Shown here in pieces: positions 27,283-33,500 of a stretch of 33,500 nt of DNA (position 1 is the first letter of the stretch; each line of letters starts with the position of its first letter). Made by a program: the position numbers and the translations under genes. The stretch is taken from the NCBI GenBank assembly GCA_023247445.1, contig JAHFGL010000025.1, positions 1 through 33,500 on the forward strand, written 5' to 3'. Below the pieces are notes generated by a model. It had not been told where the DNA came from and did no database searches. It saw only the letters and a program-made list of their open reading frames with translations. This DNA is from Candidatus Omnitrophota bacterium (GTDB taxonomy: Bacteria > Omnitrophota > Gorgyraeia > Zapsychrales > Zapsychraceae).

Positions 27283-29778
27283 TTAACCATTATTATTAAC
27301 CTCGTGAATAACTTGAATTAATTGTGGGCCGCTAAATTGATGATCATAGGCGGGGATATCCGCTTCTTGCCATGGATCTTTGTAGGCCTCAACAGCCCGT
27401 TGAATAGCCGCATCTAATTGGGCACAAATCCCCAATGAGTCTTCGATTAAAATTCCTTTTAACAAATCAATGCCAATGCGCTCAACGAATCCGTAAGTGC
27501 GTTCTAAATACTTAGCGTGCTCACGGTAATATTGAATAAATCGTCCGATGTGCTTTAAAACATCTTCGTGGCTGTCAACGGTGCAAAGTAAATCTCCCTT
27601 ACGAACCGTAGCCCCAGCCGCACCGCCGACGTAAATTTCCCATTTACCGCCTTCGATAGCAACCGCACCGATATCTTTAACGTAGGCCTCTGAACAATTG
27701 CGCGGACATCCGGCGGTGGCAAGCTTCATTTTGTGCGGAGACTCGATTCCTTGAAAACGATATTCAATTTGCTGCGCCAAACCTATCGAATCGCCAACAC
27801 CATAACGACAAAAATCTGTTCCAACGCAACTTTTGCAAGTTCGAAACGCTTTGGTGTAGGCATGACCGCTAGGCATTCCCAGATCTTTCCAAATTTTAGG
27901 AAGATCTTCTTTTTTGACACCGAGTAAGTCAATACGTTGCCCACCGGTAATTTTGACCATTTTGACTTGATACTTAACCGCGGCCTGCGCAATGCGCATC
28001 AGCTCATCGGGCGTTGTCACACCCGCATAAATGCGTGGCACGACGGAAAATGTACCGTCTTTTTGGATATTGGCATGCACACGATCATTAATAAAACGGG
28101 CATCGCGTTCATCTTCGTACGCATCAGGCCAAACCGTTTTTAACAAAGAGGCTAATCCGGCTTTACTGTCTGCATCTTCTTTTCCATCAGCTAATTCTTT
28201 GAAAACAGCACTGACGGATTTTAATTGTTTGTCTTGAATCTCACGAACGAGTTGAGATTTTTCCAGCGCAATTCCAGGGACATAAAAATGTTCACTGGCA
28301 TCATAAGAAACCTTGCCAACGGTCGCTTCAATAATTTGGGCAATAAGTCCTCGGCAGGAACCACAGCCCTTGCCAGCCTTAGTTTTACTTCCCACCGCTG
28401 AGACACTAATACAATTTTGGTCTTTAATGGCGGAAACAATTTCTTTCTTACAAACGCCGTTGCAATTACAAATCTGCGCATTTTCAGGTAAGGTTGAAAC
28501 ATCCACTAAAGAAGTTCCCGAGACGGCTCCAAAAAGAATCTCCGTTCGATTTTCAGGGACATCAAGATCACTCATAAAATACTGCATTAAACTATCCGAG
28601 GATTCTATATCTCCAAGAAGAATCCCTCCATGGATTTTATTGTGACGGACAATTAGTTTTTTATAAATACTACGGTGGGGATCGCGATAGACAATAATTT
28701 CATCATTTAAGTCATTAGAATTCTTTTCTCCCATCGAAACCAATTCAACGCCCATGACTTTTAATTTTGTCCCGGTCCTTGATCCTTCGTAAGTCGATTT
28801 TGGGTTAACCTCTGTTATGACATCCGCGAGGACTCGCGCCTGCTGCCAAATGGGTTCAACTAAACCGTAAATAACGCCGCGATGTTCCACACATTCGCCA
28901 ACCGAAAAAATATTTAGGTCGGTCGTTTTCATTTGATCATCACAAATAATCCCTTTGTTAACATTAAGTCCACACTTAAAAGCTAATTCCGTAATCGGCC
29001 GGATGCCTGCACTGATGACCACCATATCCGCCTCGAGAGTGCTTCCATCTTTAAATAATAAGGACGTGACTTGGCCATTCTCTCCAACAAGTTTTGACGT
29101 GACAACTCCGGTAAAAACACGCAAACCCATCGCCTCCATACTCCGCTTCAAAATTTGAGCCGCTTCTAAATCCAATTGAGCAGGCATAAGTTGCGGCGCG
29201 GCTTCAATCACACAGACTTCCACATTATGGGTCATCAATCCTCGAGCTGCTTCCAACCCCAAAAGCCCACCACCAATTACAACAGCCTTTTGACAATGCT
29301 TCGCGTATGCGGCAATTTGATGGCAATCATCGATTGTGCGAAATAAAAAGACACCCTTTAACTCCGTGCCTTCAATAGGTGGAACAAAAGGGCGAGAACC
29401 CGTTGCAATAATCAAATCATCGTAGGATTCTTTTACAACATCTTCTTCTGAAAGTGGCACTTGATCTTTGTAGGCAACATCCGCTTTAGATAATTTTAAG
29501 CCTTCAACTTTTTTTCTTTCTCGATCGATGTCAATAACCTTCACTCCCGCATGAAGGGTAATATCATTTTCTTGATACCAACTGAGCGGATTAATAAAGA
29601 TTTCCTGCGGTTCTTGGGTTTGATTTAAAACATTGCTTAAAAGAATCCGGTTATAATTGCCATAGGGCTCGGCGCCAAACATCGTAATTTTGAACTTATT
29701 TGGGTCACGTTTTAAAATTTCCTCAACAACTCGCGCCCCTGCCATCCCGTTACCTATGACTACAAGCTTTCTTTTCAT
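27283..29778 (-). CDS. nirB: NAD(P)H-dependent assimilatory nitrite reductase large subunit
   Basis: 831 residues, reducing nitrite to ammonium with NAD(P)H in the cytoplasm. The first 400 residues are the FAD/NAD-binding module: VVIGNGMAGARVVEEI at the start, ATGSRPFVPPI, and a second GxGxxG in VVIGGGLLGLEAARGL. A BFD-like [2Fe-2S] domain at about 430-485 has CNCNGVC and GKGCGSCRG. The sulfite/nitrite reductase half follows, with siroheme-[4Fe-4S] ligands in CKSCVGTDFC and GCPRNCSEAYVKDIG. The length is normal. GGAGG lies upstream of the ATG at 29778. First structural gene of the operon, preceded by about 380 bases of 5' leader with two terminators and a REP-like hairpin. Confidence 0.95.
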   Translation of the reverse strand: MKRKLVVIGNGMAGARVVEEILKRDPNKFKITMFGAEPYGNYNRILLSNVLNQTQEPQEIFINPLSWYQENDITLHAGVKVIDIDRERKKVEGLKLSKADVAYKDQVPLSEEDVVKESYDDLIIATGSRPFVPPIEGTELKGVFLFRTIDDCHQIAAYAKHCQKAVVIGGGLLGLEAARGLMTHNVEVCVIEAAPQLMPAQLDLEAAQILKRSMEAMGLRVFTGVVTSKLVGENGQVTSLLFKDGSTLEADMVVISAGIRPITELAFKCGLNVNKGIICDDQMKTTDLNIFSVGECVEHRGVIYGLVEPIWQQARVLADVITEVNPKSTYEGSRTGTKLKVMGVELVSMGEKNSNDLNDEIIVYRDPHRSIYKKLIVRHNKIHGGILLGDIESSDSLMQYFMSDLDVPENRTEILFGAVSGTSLVDVSTLPENAQICNCNGVCKKEIVSAIKDQNCISVSAVGSKTKAGKGCGSCRGLIAQIIEATVGKVSYDASEHFYVPGIALEKSQLVREIQDKQLKSVSAVFKELADGKEDADSKAGLASLLKTVWPDAYEDERDARFINDRVHANIQKDGTFSVVPRIYAGVTTPDELMRIAQAAVKYQVKMVKITGGQRIDLLGVKKEDLPKIWKDLGMPSGHAYTKAFRTCKSCVGTDFCRYGVGDSIGLAQQIEYRFQGIESPHKMKLATAGCPRNCSEAYVKDIGAVAIEGGKWEIYVGGAAGATVRKGDLLCTVDSHEDVLKHIGRFIQYYREHAKYLERTYGFVERIGIDLLKGILIEDSLGICAQLDAAIQRAVEAYKDPWQEADIPAYDHQFSGPQLIQVIHEVNNNG

Positions 29779-29804
29779 ACCTCTTTTTCTCCTCCCTAAA
29801 ATGG

Positions 29805-29985
29805 AGCCCCACGGGCAAAGCCCGTGATACCCGTTAAATACCCGCCTTCGCTCAAGTGCTTTCGCCTTGAGCTTCGCCGGGTTATCCGCCTAGTAATGCC
29901 TTTTGGCTTTGCCCCCTCAGCGAACATCCGCCGAAGCAAAAAACTTTTTTGCATTCATGCACTTACAAAGCTCGGGACCTTCTGC
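29805..29985. repeat. REP-like palindromes in the nirB leader
   Basis: CACGGGC and GCCCGTG close a small hairpin near 29811-29828. CCCGCCTTCGCTCAAG and CTTGAGCTTCGCCGGG form an imperfect inverted pair around TGCTTTCGC at about 29840-29881, followed by GGATGTTCGC and GGCGGAT words. The block is GC-rich and lies between the second leader terminator and the nirB ribosome-binding site, so it is transcribed as untranslated RNA. It looks like an inserted interspersed repeat rather than a conserved regulator. Confidence 0.5.
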
Positions 29986-29995
29986 GAAGGCGGAT

Positions 29996-30026
29996 AAAAA
30001 AGCCCTGAACCGTTATGGCTCAAGGC
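29996..30026 (-). terminator. Second terminator in the nirB leader, overlapped by a six-base-loop hairpin
   Basis: On the minus strand GCCTTGAGCC and GGTTCAGGGC form a 10-bp stem (two G-U pairs) with a five-base loop, followed by six T. Just before it, bases 30036-30023 fold as GGGC-ACTGAC-GCCT, a six-base loop with A1 and G4 whose 3' arm shares four bases with the terminator stem. The two structures exclude each other. Confidence 0.75.
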
Positions 30027-30042
30027 GTCAGTGCCCACAAAT

Positions 30043-30152
30043 AAAAAACCCAAATCTCCATTAATTTTTCGTCGCGGAAATTTGGGACTTCTCTGTCCTA
30101 TTGTCTCTTCAGTGAAATTTCTCTTAAACAACAACTTTGCTATTTAAGAAAA
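30043..30152 (-). promoter_or_regulatory. ANTAR-target-like antitermination leader of nirB (leader B)
   Basis: Read 5' to 3' on the minus strand. (1) A hairpin at 30152-30119 with stem CTTAAA/TTTAAG and AGTTGTT in its loop. (2) TTTC-ACTGAA-GAGA at 30117-30104, a four-pair stem with a six-base loop having A1 and G4. (3) GGAC-AGAGAA-GTCC at 30098-30085, a perfect four-pair stem with another A1/G4 six-base loop. (4) A terminator at 30086-30043: CCCAAATTTCC with GGAGATTTGGG, then six T, whose 5' arm overlaps hairpin 3. Known ANTAR proteins bind exactly such paired hexaloops and block the overlapping terminator. Binding here is inferred. Confidence 0.65.
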
Positions 30153-30171: not shown

Positions 30172-30199
30172 AATATAATTCATTCTCGGAAATGGTCAA
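30172..30199 (-). promoter_or_regulatory. Sigma70 promoter of the nirB operon
   Basis: TTGACC (30194-30199) and TATATT (30172-30177) on the minus strand, 16 bases apart. The start site would be near 30165, so the transcript begins at leader B. The promoter lies just downstream of the short LuxR gene, separating the two transcription units. Confidence 0.65.
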
Positions 30200-30232: not shown

Positions 30233-30595
30233 TTAAAACGATCCAAGATAAACAGCCAGGTCAACTTTCTTATCAGACACACCTAACTTTTTTCTTATAT
30301 GATTACGATGATGCTCAATGGTTCTTACCGAAGTATTTAACAAATCCGCGATATCTTTCGTCGGTAGGCCTCGCTTAATCATATGACAAATTTCAATTTC
30401 TCTTTGTGAGAGTCTCCATTTCTTACTTAAAACTTTACTGCCAAAGCCCTTGGTGATCTCTTTTAAGCTTTTCTCAAGCAAATCAATATTGCGTCGATCA
30501 AGATTTGTTCCTTTTCTTTTTAACTTTTCCAGAATTGGACAGATGAGTTGTTCAATATTATTGATAACGTTATATTCCAGGATCTCTTTTTTCAT
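30233..30595 (-). CDS. Short PAS-less LuxR-type regulator, paralogue of the PAS-LuxR protein
   Basis: 120 residues. A helical segment (VINNIEQLICPILEKLKRKG) leads to a LuxR/GerE helix-turn-helix at about 65-118 (LSQREIEICHMIKRGLPTKD ... RTIEHHRNHIRKKLG). The whole protein aligns with residues about 185-292 of the PAS-LuxR regulator at 20294-21202, with shared blocks LDRRNIDLLE/LDRKNILLLE and REIEIC, but it lacks the PAS sensor and coiled coil. The ATG at 30595 follows a GAGACCGG stretch; upstream is the leader with terminator at 30621-30720, so no upstream coding part was missed. It could act with, or compete with, the longer regulator. Control of nirB is inferred from position. Confidence 0.82.
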   Translation of the reverse strand: MKKEILEYNVINNIEQLICPILEKLKRKGTNLDRRNIDLLEKSLKEITKGFGSKVLSKKWRLSQREIEICHMIKRGLPTKDIADLLNTSVRTIEHHRNHIRKKLGVSDKKVDLAVYLGSF

Positions 30596-30620: not shown

Positions 30621-30712
30621 AAAAAACCCCGCACCAATTAAGGTACAGGGCTTCAACGTCCAAATCTTCTTCAATGAAATAATTTAAGTTTAACAACTAC
30701 GCCAAACTTAAA
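30621..30712 (-). promoter_or_regulatory. ANTAR-target-like antitermination leader of the short LuxR gene (leader A)
   Basis: Same plan as the nirB leader. (1) A perfect 9-bp hairpin TTTAAGTTT/AAACTTAAA at 30712-30683 with AGTTGTT in its loop. (2) TTTC-ATTGAA-GAAG at 30679-30666, with a six-base loop having A1 and G4. (3) GGAC-GTTGAA-GCCC at 30661-30648; the loop has G4 but G at position 1, and one A-C mismatch in the stem. (4) Terminator CCCTGTACC/GGTGCGGGG at 30650-30627, followed by six T at 30626-30621. Its 5' arm shares three bases with hairpin 3. It ends 25 bases before the regulator ATG. Confidence 0.6.
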
Positions 30713-30729
30713 TGTCCAACTATAAATGA

Positions 30730-30818: not shown

Positions 30819-33500
30819 CTATTTCATCGATACCTTTTCTAATTTTCTCAATCGGCGTTCAAATTCTTCGTCCTTAGCCCTGGTTTCTGCTTCTAACTTC
30901 TCAATCTTCTCCTGTTGTTTCTGAATAATTTCGCTGACGACTTTATTGCCTTCGGCCTCGCCACCCCACCAATGCACGTCAATAAAATGCATGATCTGAT
31001 TAGGTTCATTTTTCGTTAGATCAGGAATAGATTCTTTATTCTTCCCATCATAATTTTCTAGCGCAATTCCAATCACCTTTCCTGCCTTCGTCGCCCTCAT
31101 CGCCACACCGGGCGTTGATGAACTTGTTAAATACTCACCAATTTTTATCGGCCCATTTTCTAAACACACCTTAACCGGCACCACCCCGCTTAAAGCAATG
31201 GGCACGGGGTTATCTCGAAAATCTCCGCTTCCCATGATGATCGTTGGTTTGGTTGAAACAACACCCAGGATCCGATCGTCATAAGGTTTCTGTGAATATC
31301 CAACGGTTTTATATTTTGAATTATCCAAAATGACGATATCGCCTTTGTCAACTTTCGCTGCCCCGTCAAACTCTTCCGCCACGTCGGCATCGCAGCTTGC
31401 CGCCCCTGTACAAGCCCCATCAACTTCTAAGGTATCTTGTACATAAAGATCTCCCGACCCAGTTGCTTGACCGATCGTACCTCCACTTCCTACTCTTACG
31501 CGACCATTAAATATCGAATCATTGGCATCCATCGTAAAGTTTGCAATATTACCTAAAGCTACACCTGCGATGATTAAATCACGACTGGCAGTTTCATTTT
31601 CATCCAAGGAAATAATGTAATTGGCTGTAGAGTTCGGTTCAATATAAATGGTGCCCTCAGAAGCATTTTGAACAATCAATTGAGCTGTCCCAGTATTTGA
31701 AATACGTGCTTGGCCAGCGACATCTAATTTATAACCCGGCGCAGTTATCGCAATCCCGACATTACCATTTGCCTTGATGACCATACGCGGGCTGGCCTGG
31801 CCATCCGTGGCCCCATCGTCTTCGGTATAAAATTCTAGTCGAGTTGGAGCATCATCAATATCAGCCGTGTCTCCCCAGGTCCCGTCTCCTACAACTTTTA
31901 TATTTGCAGCCGAATATTGAAAAGCCCCATCATCAACCCCGTTAATAGCAACTGCCCAAATTGCATCTCCTGCCACTATAGATGAGTCAGAAGATGTAAT
32001 GGTGTTTGAAATTCCAATTGTTAGATATGTTGAATTATCCGCCATAGTGGCATAGAGAAAACCAAAACCATCTCCGTCTTCATCGAAATCAATAGATGTT
32101 GAGTCATTAAGGAGATCATCCTGACTTATCGAAATTCTACTAGAACTGCTGCTTCCTATATTTAATTCATCGTTGCCATAAATGGTGAGACCAGCTGTTG
32201 GCGCCGTTGTCCCGATCCCGACGTTACCGGATTCTACTGTTAAAGCTGGAGCAGATGAGACTTGCTTAATATTGATCGCGGCTGCACCAACGGCAGCAGA
32301 GTTATCTTGAGTAATTTGTACTAAATTTCGGGTAGCTGTGCTTGCTGAATTTGATACAAAATTTGCAATCTTACCAGTGGTCAATGTCGTATCATTGGAT
32401 ATATCTAAAGCAGTCGCCGTTGTCATTGCATCTGTGATGATGTTGACAACCTTTCCGGTTGCTGTAGAACTTTCTATATAGACAGAAGCATCTGTTTTGG
32501 CGGCACCGTTATCATCGATATATAACGCCCTTGCATTGGCCTCTTGCGTAAGGGCTAAATTCGTTGCGCCTACCGCTGCTGTGGAACTATTCGCTATAGC
32601 TACTAAATACCTCGATGCTGTGCTTGCACTATTCGATACAAAACTCGCAATTCTACCGGTCGTCAGCGCATTCGCATCGCCAATGTCAAGCGCATTTCCA
32701 GTTGTCAACACCGTCGGCTGAATGTCGACAACATTTGCGGTCGTTTGCTCACCATCTATATCTAACGCAACACCCGTCGGTCCGTTATGGTCTATAAATA
32801 ATGATGTGTTGATAGAATCTTGTTGAATGGCCAATACTTTTGTCGTTGCAGCCCCAGTGCTATCATTGGTCATTTGAACCAATGTTCTGGCCGTTGTATC
32901 CGCACTATTCGAAACAAAGTTCGCAATCTTACCTGAGGTCAGTGCGTCAGCATCACCGATGTCGAGTGCAATTCCTGTTGTCAAAACAGTTGGCTGAATG
33001 TCTACAACATTCGCTGTCGTTTGCTCACCATCTATATCTAACGCAACACCCGTCGGTCCGTTATGGTCTATAAATAATGATGTGTTGATAGAATCTTGTT
33101 GGATGGCCAATACTTTTGTCGTTGCAGCCCCGGTGCTATCATTGGTCATTTGAACCAATGTTCTTGCTGTGGTTGTTGCTGAATTCGAAACGAAGTTAGC
33201 AATTTTACCACTCGTCAATGCATCCGCATCACCAATGTCCAAAGCCGTGGCTGTGGTTAACGGCGCGGCCGAAATATTAATAATATCAGCGTCTGTATTT
33301 TCTGCGTCGATATCAAGGGCAATCATCCCGGCTGTATCATTTTGGTCAATCTGCATCGCAAATCCGGAATCGTTGGTGCCGTTATCATTTTGAATGACGA
33401 ATGCGTCGTCCGCTGAAGTTAACGAAATGATCGTATTGCTTCCATCACCATCATTGCCATAAGTTGCTTGCAATGTTGATCCTGTTCCACTATCTCCCTG
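30819..33500 (-). CDS. Large repetitive surface or fibre-like protein, C-terminal part (N-terminus outside window)
   Basis: The frame is open to the right edge: upstream of the internal TTG at 33473 it continues as QGDSGTGST, so the gene is 5'-partial and at least 893 residues are visible. The first half has at least four copies of a beta-strand module of about 92 residues built around ALDIGDADALTSGKIANFVSN and LFIDHNGPTGVALDIDGE. Then come NVGIGTTAP and GNVGIAITAPGYKLDVAG motifs, as in tail-fibre-like surface proteins. Near the C-terminus is a conserved domain (ADVAEEFDG ... DRILGVVSTKP ... GPIKIGEYLTSSSTPGVAMRA), and a coiled coil ends the chain (EIIQKQQEKIEKLEAETRAK). It is likely a trimeric extracellular fibre or adhesin. 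There is no terminator right after the stop. Confidence 0.8.
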   Translation of the reverse strand, partial: QGDSGTGSTLQATYGNDGDGSNTIISLTSADDAFVIQNDNGTNDSGFAMQIDQNDTAGMIALDIDAENTDADIINISAAPLTTATALDIGDADALTSGKIANFVSNSATTTARTLVQMTNDSTGAATTKVLAIQQDSINTSLFIDHNGPTGVALDIDGEQTTANVVDIQPTVLTTGIALDIGDADALTSGKIANFVSNSADTTARTLVQMTNDSTGAATTKVLAIQQDSINTSLFIDHNGPTGVALDIDGEQTTANVVDIQPTVLTTGNALDIGDANALTTGRIASFVSNSASTASRYLVAIANSSTAAVGATNLALTQEANARALYIDDNGAAKTDASVYIESSTATGKVVNIITDAMTTATALDISNDTTLTTGKIANFVSNSASTATRNLVQITQDNSAAVGAAAINIKQVSSAPALTVESGNVGIGTTAPTAGLTIYGNDELNIGSSSSSRISISQDDLLNDSTSIDFDEDGDGFGFLYATMADNSTYLTIGISNTITSSDSSIVAGDAIWAVAINGVDDGAFQYSAANIKVVGDGTWGDTADIDDAPTRLEFYTEDDGATDGQASPRMVIKANGNVGIAITAPGYKLDVAGQARISNTGTAQLIVQNASEGTIYIEPNSTANYIISLDENETASRDLIIAGVALGNIANFTMDANDSIFNGRVRVGSGGTIGQATGSGDLYVQDTLEVDGACTGAASCDADVAEEFDGAAKVDKGDIVILDNSKYKTVGYSQKPYDDRILGVVSTKPTIIMGSGDFRDNPVPIALSGVVPVKVCLENGPIKIGEYLTSSSTPGVAMRATKAGKVIGIALENYDGKNKESIPDLTKNEPNQIMHFIDVHWWGGEAEGNKVVSEIIQKQQEKIEKLEAETRAKDEEFERRLRKLEKVSMK
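32740..33164 (-). repeat. Near-identical 276-nt-period tandem repeat inside the surface protein gene
   Basis: Bases 32740-32888 and 33016-33164 are the same 149-nt block with two mismatches, offset by exactly 276 nt (92 codons). Flanking parts of the module have diverged. The pattern suggests recent duplication or gene conversion of a surface-protein module. Confidence 0.85.

Follow-up and report, generated by a model that had tools for sequence, protein, structure and literature searches.

The window, a stretch of 33,500 nt from an Omnitrophota MAG (genome completeness 95.6%), carries on its minus strand a nirB gene whose leader is the locus of two transcription gates (Table 1). The closest named relatives with a matching nirB are, by protein similarity, Omnitrophota MAGs. 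The leader probably starts at about 30165 and runs for about 390 nt before nirB. A search for a promoter between the two terminators, T1 and T2, found none, nor was a second minus-strand promoter found in the nirB leader. Just upstream of nirB lies a small luxR-type HTH gene (30233-30595), which stands behind an ANTAR-type leader of its own, and an open frame of 884 aa with a TTG start (30819-33473, minus strand) has no Pfam match. Rfam searches of the window at the gathering score and of six related loci returned no family, and at that score Rfam found in the leader no described ligand-binding aptamer of the kind that defines tandem riboswitches.

Table 1. Features of the nirB leader and its neighbourhood (positions in the window)
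Feature	Position	Strand	Basis or remark
nirB-type nitrite reductase large subunit, downstream of both gates	27283..29778	-	Pfam NIR_SIR, Pyr_redox_2, Fer2_BFD
T2 U-run, TTTTTT	29996..30001	-	sequence
T2, second intrinsic terminator stem, 10 bp, 4-nt overlap with P3	30002..30026	-	-16.1 kcal/mol
P3, hexaloop hairpin GGGC-ACTGAC-GCCT (A1, G4), putative antiterminator of gate 2	30023..30036	-	folding, alignment A1
T1 U-run	30043..30048	-	sequence
T1, intrinsic terminator stem, 12 bp, 2-nt overlap with P2	30049..30086	-	sequence, folding
P2, hexaloop hairpin GGAC-AGAGAA-GTCC, putative antiterminator of gate 1	30085..30098	-	folding, alignment A2
P1, hexaloop hairpin TTTC-ACTGAA-GAGA (A1, G4)	30104..30117	-	+0.1 kcal/mol alone; counterparts in homologous leaders
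P0, long-stem hairpin, 14 bp, hexaloop AAAGTT (A1, G4)	30119..30152	-	sequence, folding
Promoter, sigma-70-like, TTGACC-16-TATATT	30172..30199	-	only one found between the upstream luxR-type gene and nirB on the minus strand
Second ANTAR-type leader, single gate GGAC-GTTGAA-GCCC overlapping the terminator; P0, P1 and P2 present	30621..30720	-	

An earlier note on this DNA had described a tandem gate, in which the polymerase must pass two serial terminators that are each overlapped by a hexaloop hairpin. This arrangement is borne out, with hairpins of the ANTAR type, and the sequence, coordinates and four-base P3/T2 overlap given there are exact. P3 consists of GGGC (30036-30033), the loop ACTGAC (30032-30027) and GCCT (30026-30023); the GCCT is common to its 3' arm and to T2, whose stem reads GCCTTGAGCC-ATAAC-GGTTCAGGGC. 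The leader as a whole has the features by which ANTAR leaders are recognised: two nearby hexaloop hairpins with A1 and G4 (P1, ACTGAA, and P2, AGAGAA, joined by a linker of 5 nt), a 2-nt overlap of P2 with T1 whose predicted folds are mutually exclusive, and an ANTAR protein encoded in the genome. Gate 2 taken alone has an A1/G4 hexaloop hairpin overlapping its terminator by 4 nt, and is not a complete module, having no partner hexaloop of its own either upstream or at the terminator tip. Counterparts of P0 were seen in the luxR-type leader (30621-30720) and in several nirB leaders besides this one.

In predicted folds, an RNA ending at P2 forms P0, P1 and P2, and inclusion of the 3' arm of T1 lets T1 displace P2; likewise, T2 displaces P3 once its own 3' arm is included. 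For a 144-nt RNA ending at P3, the MFE structure holds P0, P1, P2, a shortened T1 and P3, whereas the centroid retains the full T1 instead of P2, so that the picture of all hairpins standing together is that of the MFE structure only. P0 is drawn in these folds with a four-base loop inside its hexaloop. Given that P3 alone reaches -4.4 kcal/mol as against -16.1 kcal/mol for T2, T2 would prevail unless something holds P3.

Between T2 and nirB, about 190 nt (29800-29985, minus strand) contain many inverted repeats (ATCCGCC...GGCGGATAACCC). We considered that this stretch might be a dispersed repeat and rejected the idea, as it occurs at 2 places in the genome, one of them with 3 mismatches. Stretches of GGCGAATAACCC that resemble these repeats lie behind T1 in three homologous leaders (L003, L004, L007). 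The same three share behind T1 a large conserved hairpin, found by eye (CCCCAG...TGATTCATCCCG...CGGGATGAATCA...GCTGGGG), about 100-200 nt upstream of the nirB start (roughly locus positions 2780-2985); it has no Rfam match, and its stem apparently varies on both sides.

Conservation and spread of the second gate

Dinucleotide shuffling of the 40 nt upstream of the T2 arm, with the arm itself kept, gave an overlapping RNNGNN hexaloop hairpin closed by C-G in 86 of 20,000 shuffles. Homologous nirB leaders were then chosen by protein similarity only, free of the pattern, and 20 were examined once duplicates, loci lacking the start of the gene and three distantly related, partial homologues (L030-L032) had been removed. 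The first terminator is gated by a hairpin in 15 of the 20 (L020, L026, L027, L006 and L008 are the exceptions), and 13 leaders have two or more terminators. At the second terminator an RNNGNN hexaloop hairpin is found in 12 of these 13, the exception, L014, having a loop of 7 nt; L007 was counted under a looser filter and fails the stricter one, which brings the strict count to 11/13. Other terminators in the same pattern-free loci carry such a hairpin in 7 of 126 cases (Fisher, 9e-12 against 12/13 and 4e-10 against the strict 11/13). Behind the seven gated others lie luxR-type genes (five) and glnA (one), L002:1620 being the remaining one, and those before luxR-type genes and glnA are probably ANTAR targets too.

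The P3 loop reads RNNGA(N) in the 12 nirB leaders, with A at position 1 in nine and G in three; G4, A5 and the closing C-G pair never vary (alignment A1), even though the T2 sequences differ between leaders that retain P3. Covariation of the P3 pairs does not rise above shuffles (107/500), a comparison that is uninformative because the stem is nearly invariant. Judged by these sequences, the second gate is real and conserved; conservation of the second hairpin was the check that the earlier note had set for itself. All counts include related species, which are non-independent samples, and gates were called by our own thresholds.

Two further features were seen in these leaders. Counted from the loop, the second pair is an A.C mismatch (GGAC...GCCC) in 8 of 13 distinct P2 hairpins versus 0 of 12 P3 hairpins (alignment A2); the mismatch may weaken P2, leaving T1 as the default. 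In the nirB leader L013 (G040) there are three gates, of which the third lies far downstream of the second and follows a distant P1-like hairpin, GTTTC-GCTGAA-GAAAC.

The tandem layout is not unique to the nirB leader of the window, as double and triple gates are found across the order. A strict pattern of hexaloop hairpin, T-run and hexaloop hairpin matches 30 of 384 phylum genomes, mostly incomplete MAGs, versus 2 genomes for the reversed pattern; the 30 is a count of pattern matches, a few of which are visibly without a terminator (e.g. one in G024). By group, the matches fall in 27 of 61 genomes of the family and order to which the genome of the window belongs and in 3 of 323 elsewhere in the phylum. 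Clusters of one, two and three gates number 49, 26 and 9 in loci partly chosen by the pattern, and triple gates stand before amtB in five cases.

The partner hairpin at first and second gates

We surveyed partner hairpins at 118 unique gates, in loci that were partly chosen by the pattern and not by the partner. Of the first or isolated gates, 39/74 have an upstream RNNGNN partner, versus 1/74 for control loops. Compact second gates, which lie at most 25 nt behind the previous terminator stem, have none (0/28), and where a gap of 20-60 nt leaves enough room for a partner, 2/15 second gates have one (Fisher 0.009). The 0/28 is in part simply a lack of room in short gaps. With hexaloops at the terminator tip included, 56/74 first gates have a partner versus 8/28 compact second gates (Fisher 2e-5), which leaves 18/74 and 20/28, respectively, without any that was detected. 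Of ten other second gates, whose gaps measure 26-60 nt, 7 have a partner, as does 1 of six whose gaps measure 61-150 nt. Gate 2 of the window, with a gap of 12 nt, no upstream partner and ATAAC as the tip loop of T2, has no partner at all. Thus, where the earlier note had spoken of a repeated antiterminator element, what recurs is the hairpin that overlaps the terminator; the P1 partner is absent, here as in most compact second gates.

Tip hexaloops are found at 17 of 35 first gates that lack an upstream partner, versus 4 of 39 that have one (p = 3e-4), and at 21/74 first gates versus 10/148 ungated terminators (p = 5e-5), so that they look like substitutes for the upstream partner. A C-G-closed RNNGNN hexaloop forms the apical loop of terminators in L014, L034, L068, L097, L099, L129, L136, L139 and L140; it is possible that such a loop is an ANTAR site inside the terminator, mainly where the upstream partner is absent. 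P0 was considered as the partner of P3 and dropped, given that no P0 was seen in this genome's amtB leader, which does have P1, P2 and P3, and that P0 occurs without a second gate in the single-gate leaders L004 and L018 and in the luxR-type leader.

The ANTAR regulator and its candidate targets

The genome holds one ANTAR gene (Pfam search, PF03861, E 6e-21), whose product is a GAF-GAF-ANTAR protein, with two matches to GAF and with ANTAR as its C-terminal domain. This ANTAR domain can be aligned with those of EutV (6wsh), Rv1626 and NasR. EutV contacts RNA through Tyr164 and Met172 (PMC8934654); given a shift of two in the chain numbering, these residues appear to match a Tyr and a Met of the query, and K143 and K147 a Lys and an Arg.

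The gate pattern occurs at five places in the genome, versus one for the reversed control: T1 of nirB, the luxR-type leader of the window, the leaders of amtB-glnK and of a type III glnA, and C47, the last without an evident terminator. The amtB-glnK leader lies directly behind the ANTAR gene and is tandem too. The luxR-type leader suggests that the regulon may include a DNA-binding regulator adjoining nirB. Elsewhere a GAF-GAF-ANTAR gene often stands directly upstream of a gated amtB, glnA or nirB leader (L001/L040 (G000:C38), L012, L010, L099, L116, L129), and the GAF-GAF-ANTAR proteins probably control these adjoining leaders. At 28 of 30 loci (the motif yielded no reading frame at the remaining 2), 46 terminators were located from just before the ANTAR gene to 650 nt behind it; RNNGNN hexaloops gate 25 of these, and hexaloops of another kind gate 2. 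Of 73 genomes in the order, 62 showed an ANTAR gene; 11 are without a detected one, yet G002, G012, G056 and G059 among them bear gate-like leaders. Most of the ANTAR-negative genomes are incomplete assemblies, and G002 is 95% complete. The tandem pattern occurs in 26/54 genomes with ANTAR versus 1/7 without (tallied by hand), a difference that is not significant (p = 0.12).

Proposed mechanism, alternatives and meaning

The components of this leader are those of known ANTAR antitermination, already tied to nitrogen genes. As in the dual-hairpin leaders of E. faecalis eutP, eutG, eutS and eutA (with EutV), K. oxytoca nasF (with NasR) and P. aeruginosa amiE (with AmiR), the hexaloops carry A1 and G4 and are closed by C-G, the last hairpin shares bases with an intrinsic terminator, and the genes are nitrogen-related (PMC3369931, PMC7496416). 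Unlike in those leaders, there are two terminators here and up to three in relatives, each with an overlapping hexaloop, the later gates are mostly without P1, and the long-stem P0 is additional; the regulator is GAF-GAF-ANTAR, whereas theirs are REC-, NIT- or pseudo-receiver-ANTAR. Ramesh et al. (PMC3369931) describe 13 ANTAR attenuation systems in six transcription units of Desulfotomaculum acetoxidans, likewise a nitrogen regulon with more than one ANTAR attenuator per unit. Their passages on these units do not state tandem placement within one leader, and the case stands as a possible precedent. Tandem riboswitches with two expression platforms also set two serial terminators under the same signal, with a steeper, more digital response predicted (PMC9481103); unlike in these, a protein would act here as the sensor, and the second unit copies the first incompletely. 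In the successive-binding model for EutV one dimer visits a recruitment hairpin and then an antitermination hairpin (PMC8934654), and to its two hairpins and one terminator the leaders described here add a third hairpin and a second terminator. In the open-licence literature, Omnitrophota together with ANTAR included, we found no paper titled as describing tandem ANTAR gates in one leader.

From the sequence comparisons and predicted folds we consider it likely that the leader is a tandem ANTAR-controlled attenuator, with gate 2 a half-module that depends on gate 1 because a partner hairpin of its own is missing. In the default state T1 would form, followed by T2, and nirB would be off. When active, the regulator (the most likely candidate is the one GAF-GAF-ANTAR protein, whose gene precedes amtB) would bind the hexaloops of P0/P1 and then P2, P2 would capture the foot of T1 and RNA polymerase would pass gate 1. 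The emerging P3 would capture four bases of the 5' arm of T2, and ANTAR already on the leader would hold P3, letting the polymerase pass T2 and transcribe nirB. A dimer on P2 would already be placed for P3, the shortened T1 hairpin cutting the distance, which would explain second gates without a recruiter; three working hexaloops (P1, P2, P3) would thereby serve two terminators, and the expected effect would be a multiplied OFF block at little ON cost. The steps that we infer are the signal, the binding of ANTAR, its transfer from P2 to P3, and read-through.

The missing partner at second gates fits an ANTAR dimer that is recruited at gate 1 and passed to gate 2, and the successive-binding model, a published revision (PMC8934654), would allow such a hand-over. 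The spacing counts against it, since P2 and P3 are 48 nt apart in sequence, a distance that a shortened T1, itself only predicted, must bridge, whereas lengthening the P1-P2 linker of EutV by 20 nt abolished antitermination in vitro (PMC8934654). P1 alone, moreover, is barely stable (+0.1 kcal/mol), and sharing of a partner is not universal, as 8 of the 28 compact second gates have a hexaloop at their own terminator tip. A more detailed form of the hand-over, which we offer tentatively and would not yet call probable, is a walking antiterminator: an ANTAR dimer recruited once at P0/P1 would step along P2, P3 and, in relatives, a third hairpin as each emerges, with the shortened preceding terminator as spacer, and related gates would use a terminator-tip hexaloop in place of the upstream recruiter.

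The main rival, which we regard as rather unlikely, is that a separate ANTAR dimer binds P3 alone, so that two independent gates multiply without interacting and yield a pseudo-cooperative, steeper response. Tandem riboswitches with two expression platforms act in this way (PMC9481103), and EutV binds isolated hexaloops with similar affinity, in a study that redefines the minimal target as one hexaloop (PMC8934654). NasR, however, binds a single hairpin about 12-fold more weakly than the pair (about 12 uM versus ~1 uM; PMC7496416), antitermination by EutV in vivo requires both hexaloops and is sensitive to linker length (PMC3369931), and most first gates have a partner, so that a lone hexaloop seems insufficient from scratch. 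Sharper control is plausible; independent gates would steepen the response, whereas the main effect of handing over bound ANTAR would be a smaller leak.

It is very improbable that T2 is a plain fail-safe terminator beside which P3 is decayed or accidental. P3 has just 4 bp, and T2 is far more stable than it; yet P3 is kept in 12 of 13 leaders with differing T2 sequences, P3-like hairpins are rare among the shuffles (86/20,000), and nirB would be silent behind a T2 that always stayed closed, because no second minus-strand promoter was found in the leader. The idea that a leader peptide brings about ribosome-mediated attenuation, the hairpins being the RNA states of that process, is scarcely credible and was set aside: short frames do cross the leader, but the 13-codon frame from 30061 starts inside T1 with no evident ribosome-binding site upstream, and the conserved hexaloop motif and matching ANTAR gene need no peptide.

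An ANTAR dimer may engage its two hairpins simultaneously or in succession, and leaders whose two or three serial terminators would share a single recruiting hairpin separate these two views. The second gates supply natural single-hexaloop gates, a bioinformatic search for which is called for by the paper on the EutV structure (PMC8934654). For the Omnitrophota, a phylum without isolates (PMC10066038), the leaders point to a nitrogen regulon, comprising nirB, amtB-glnK and glnA, that would be under one RNA-binding regulator.
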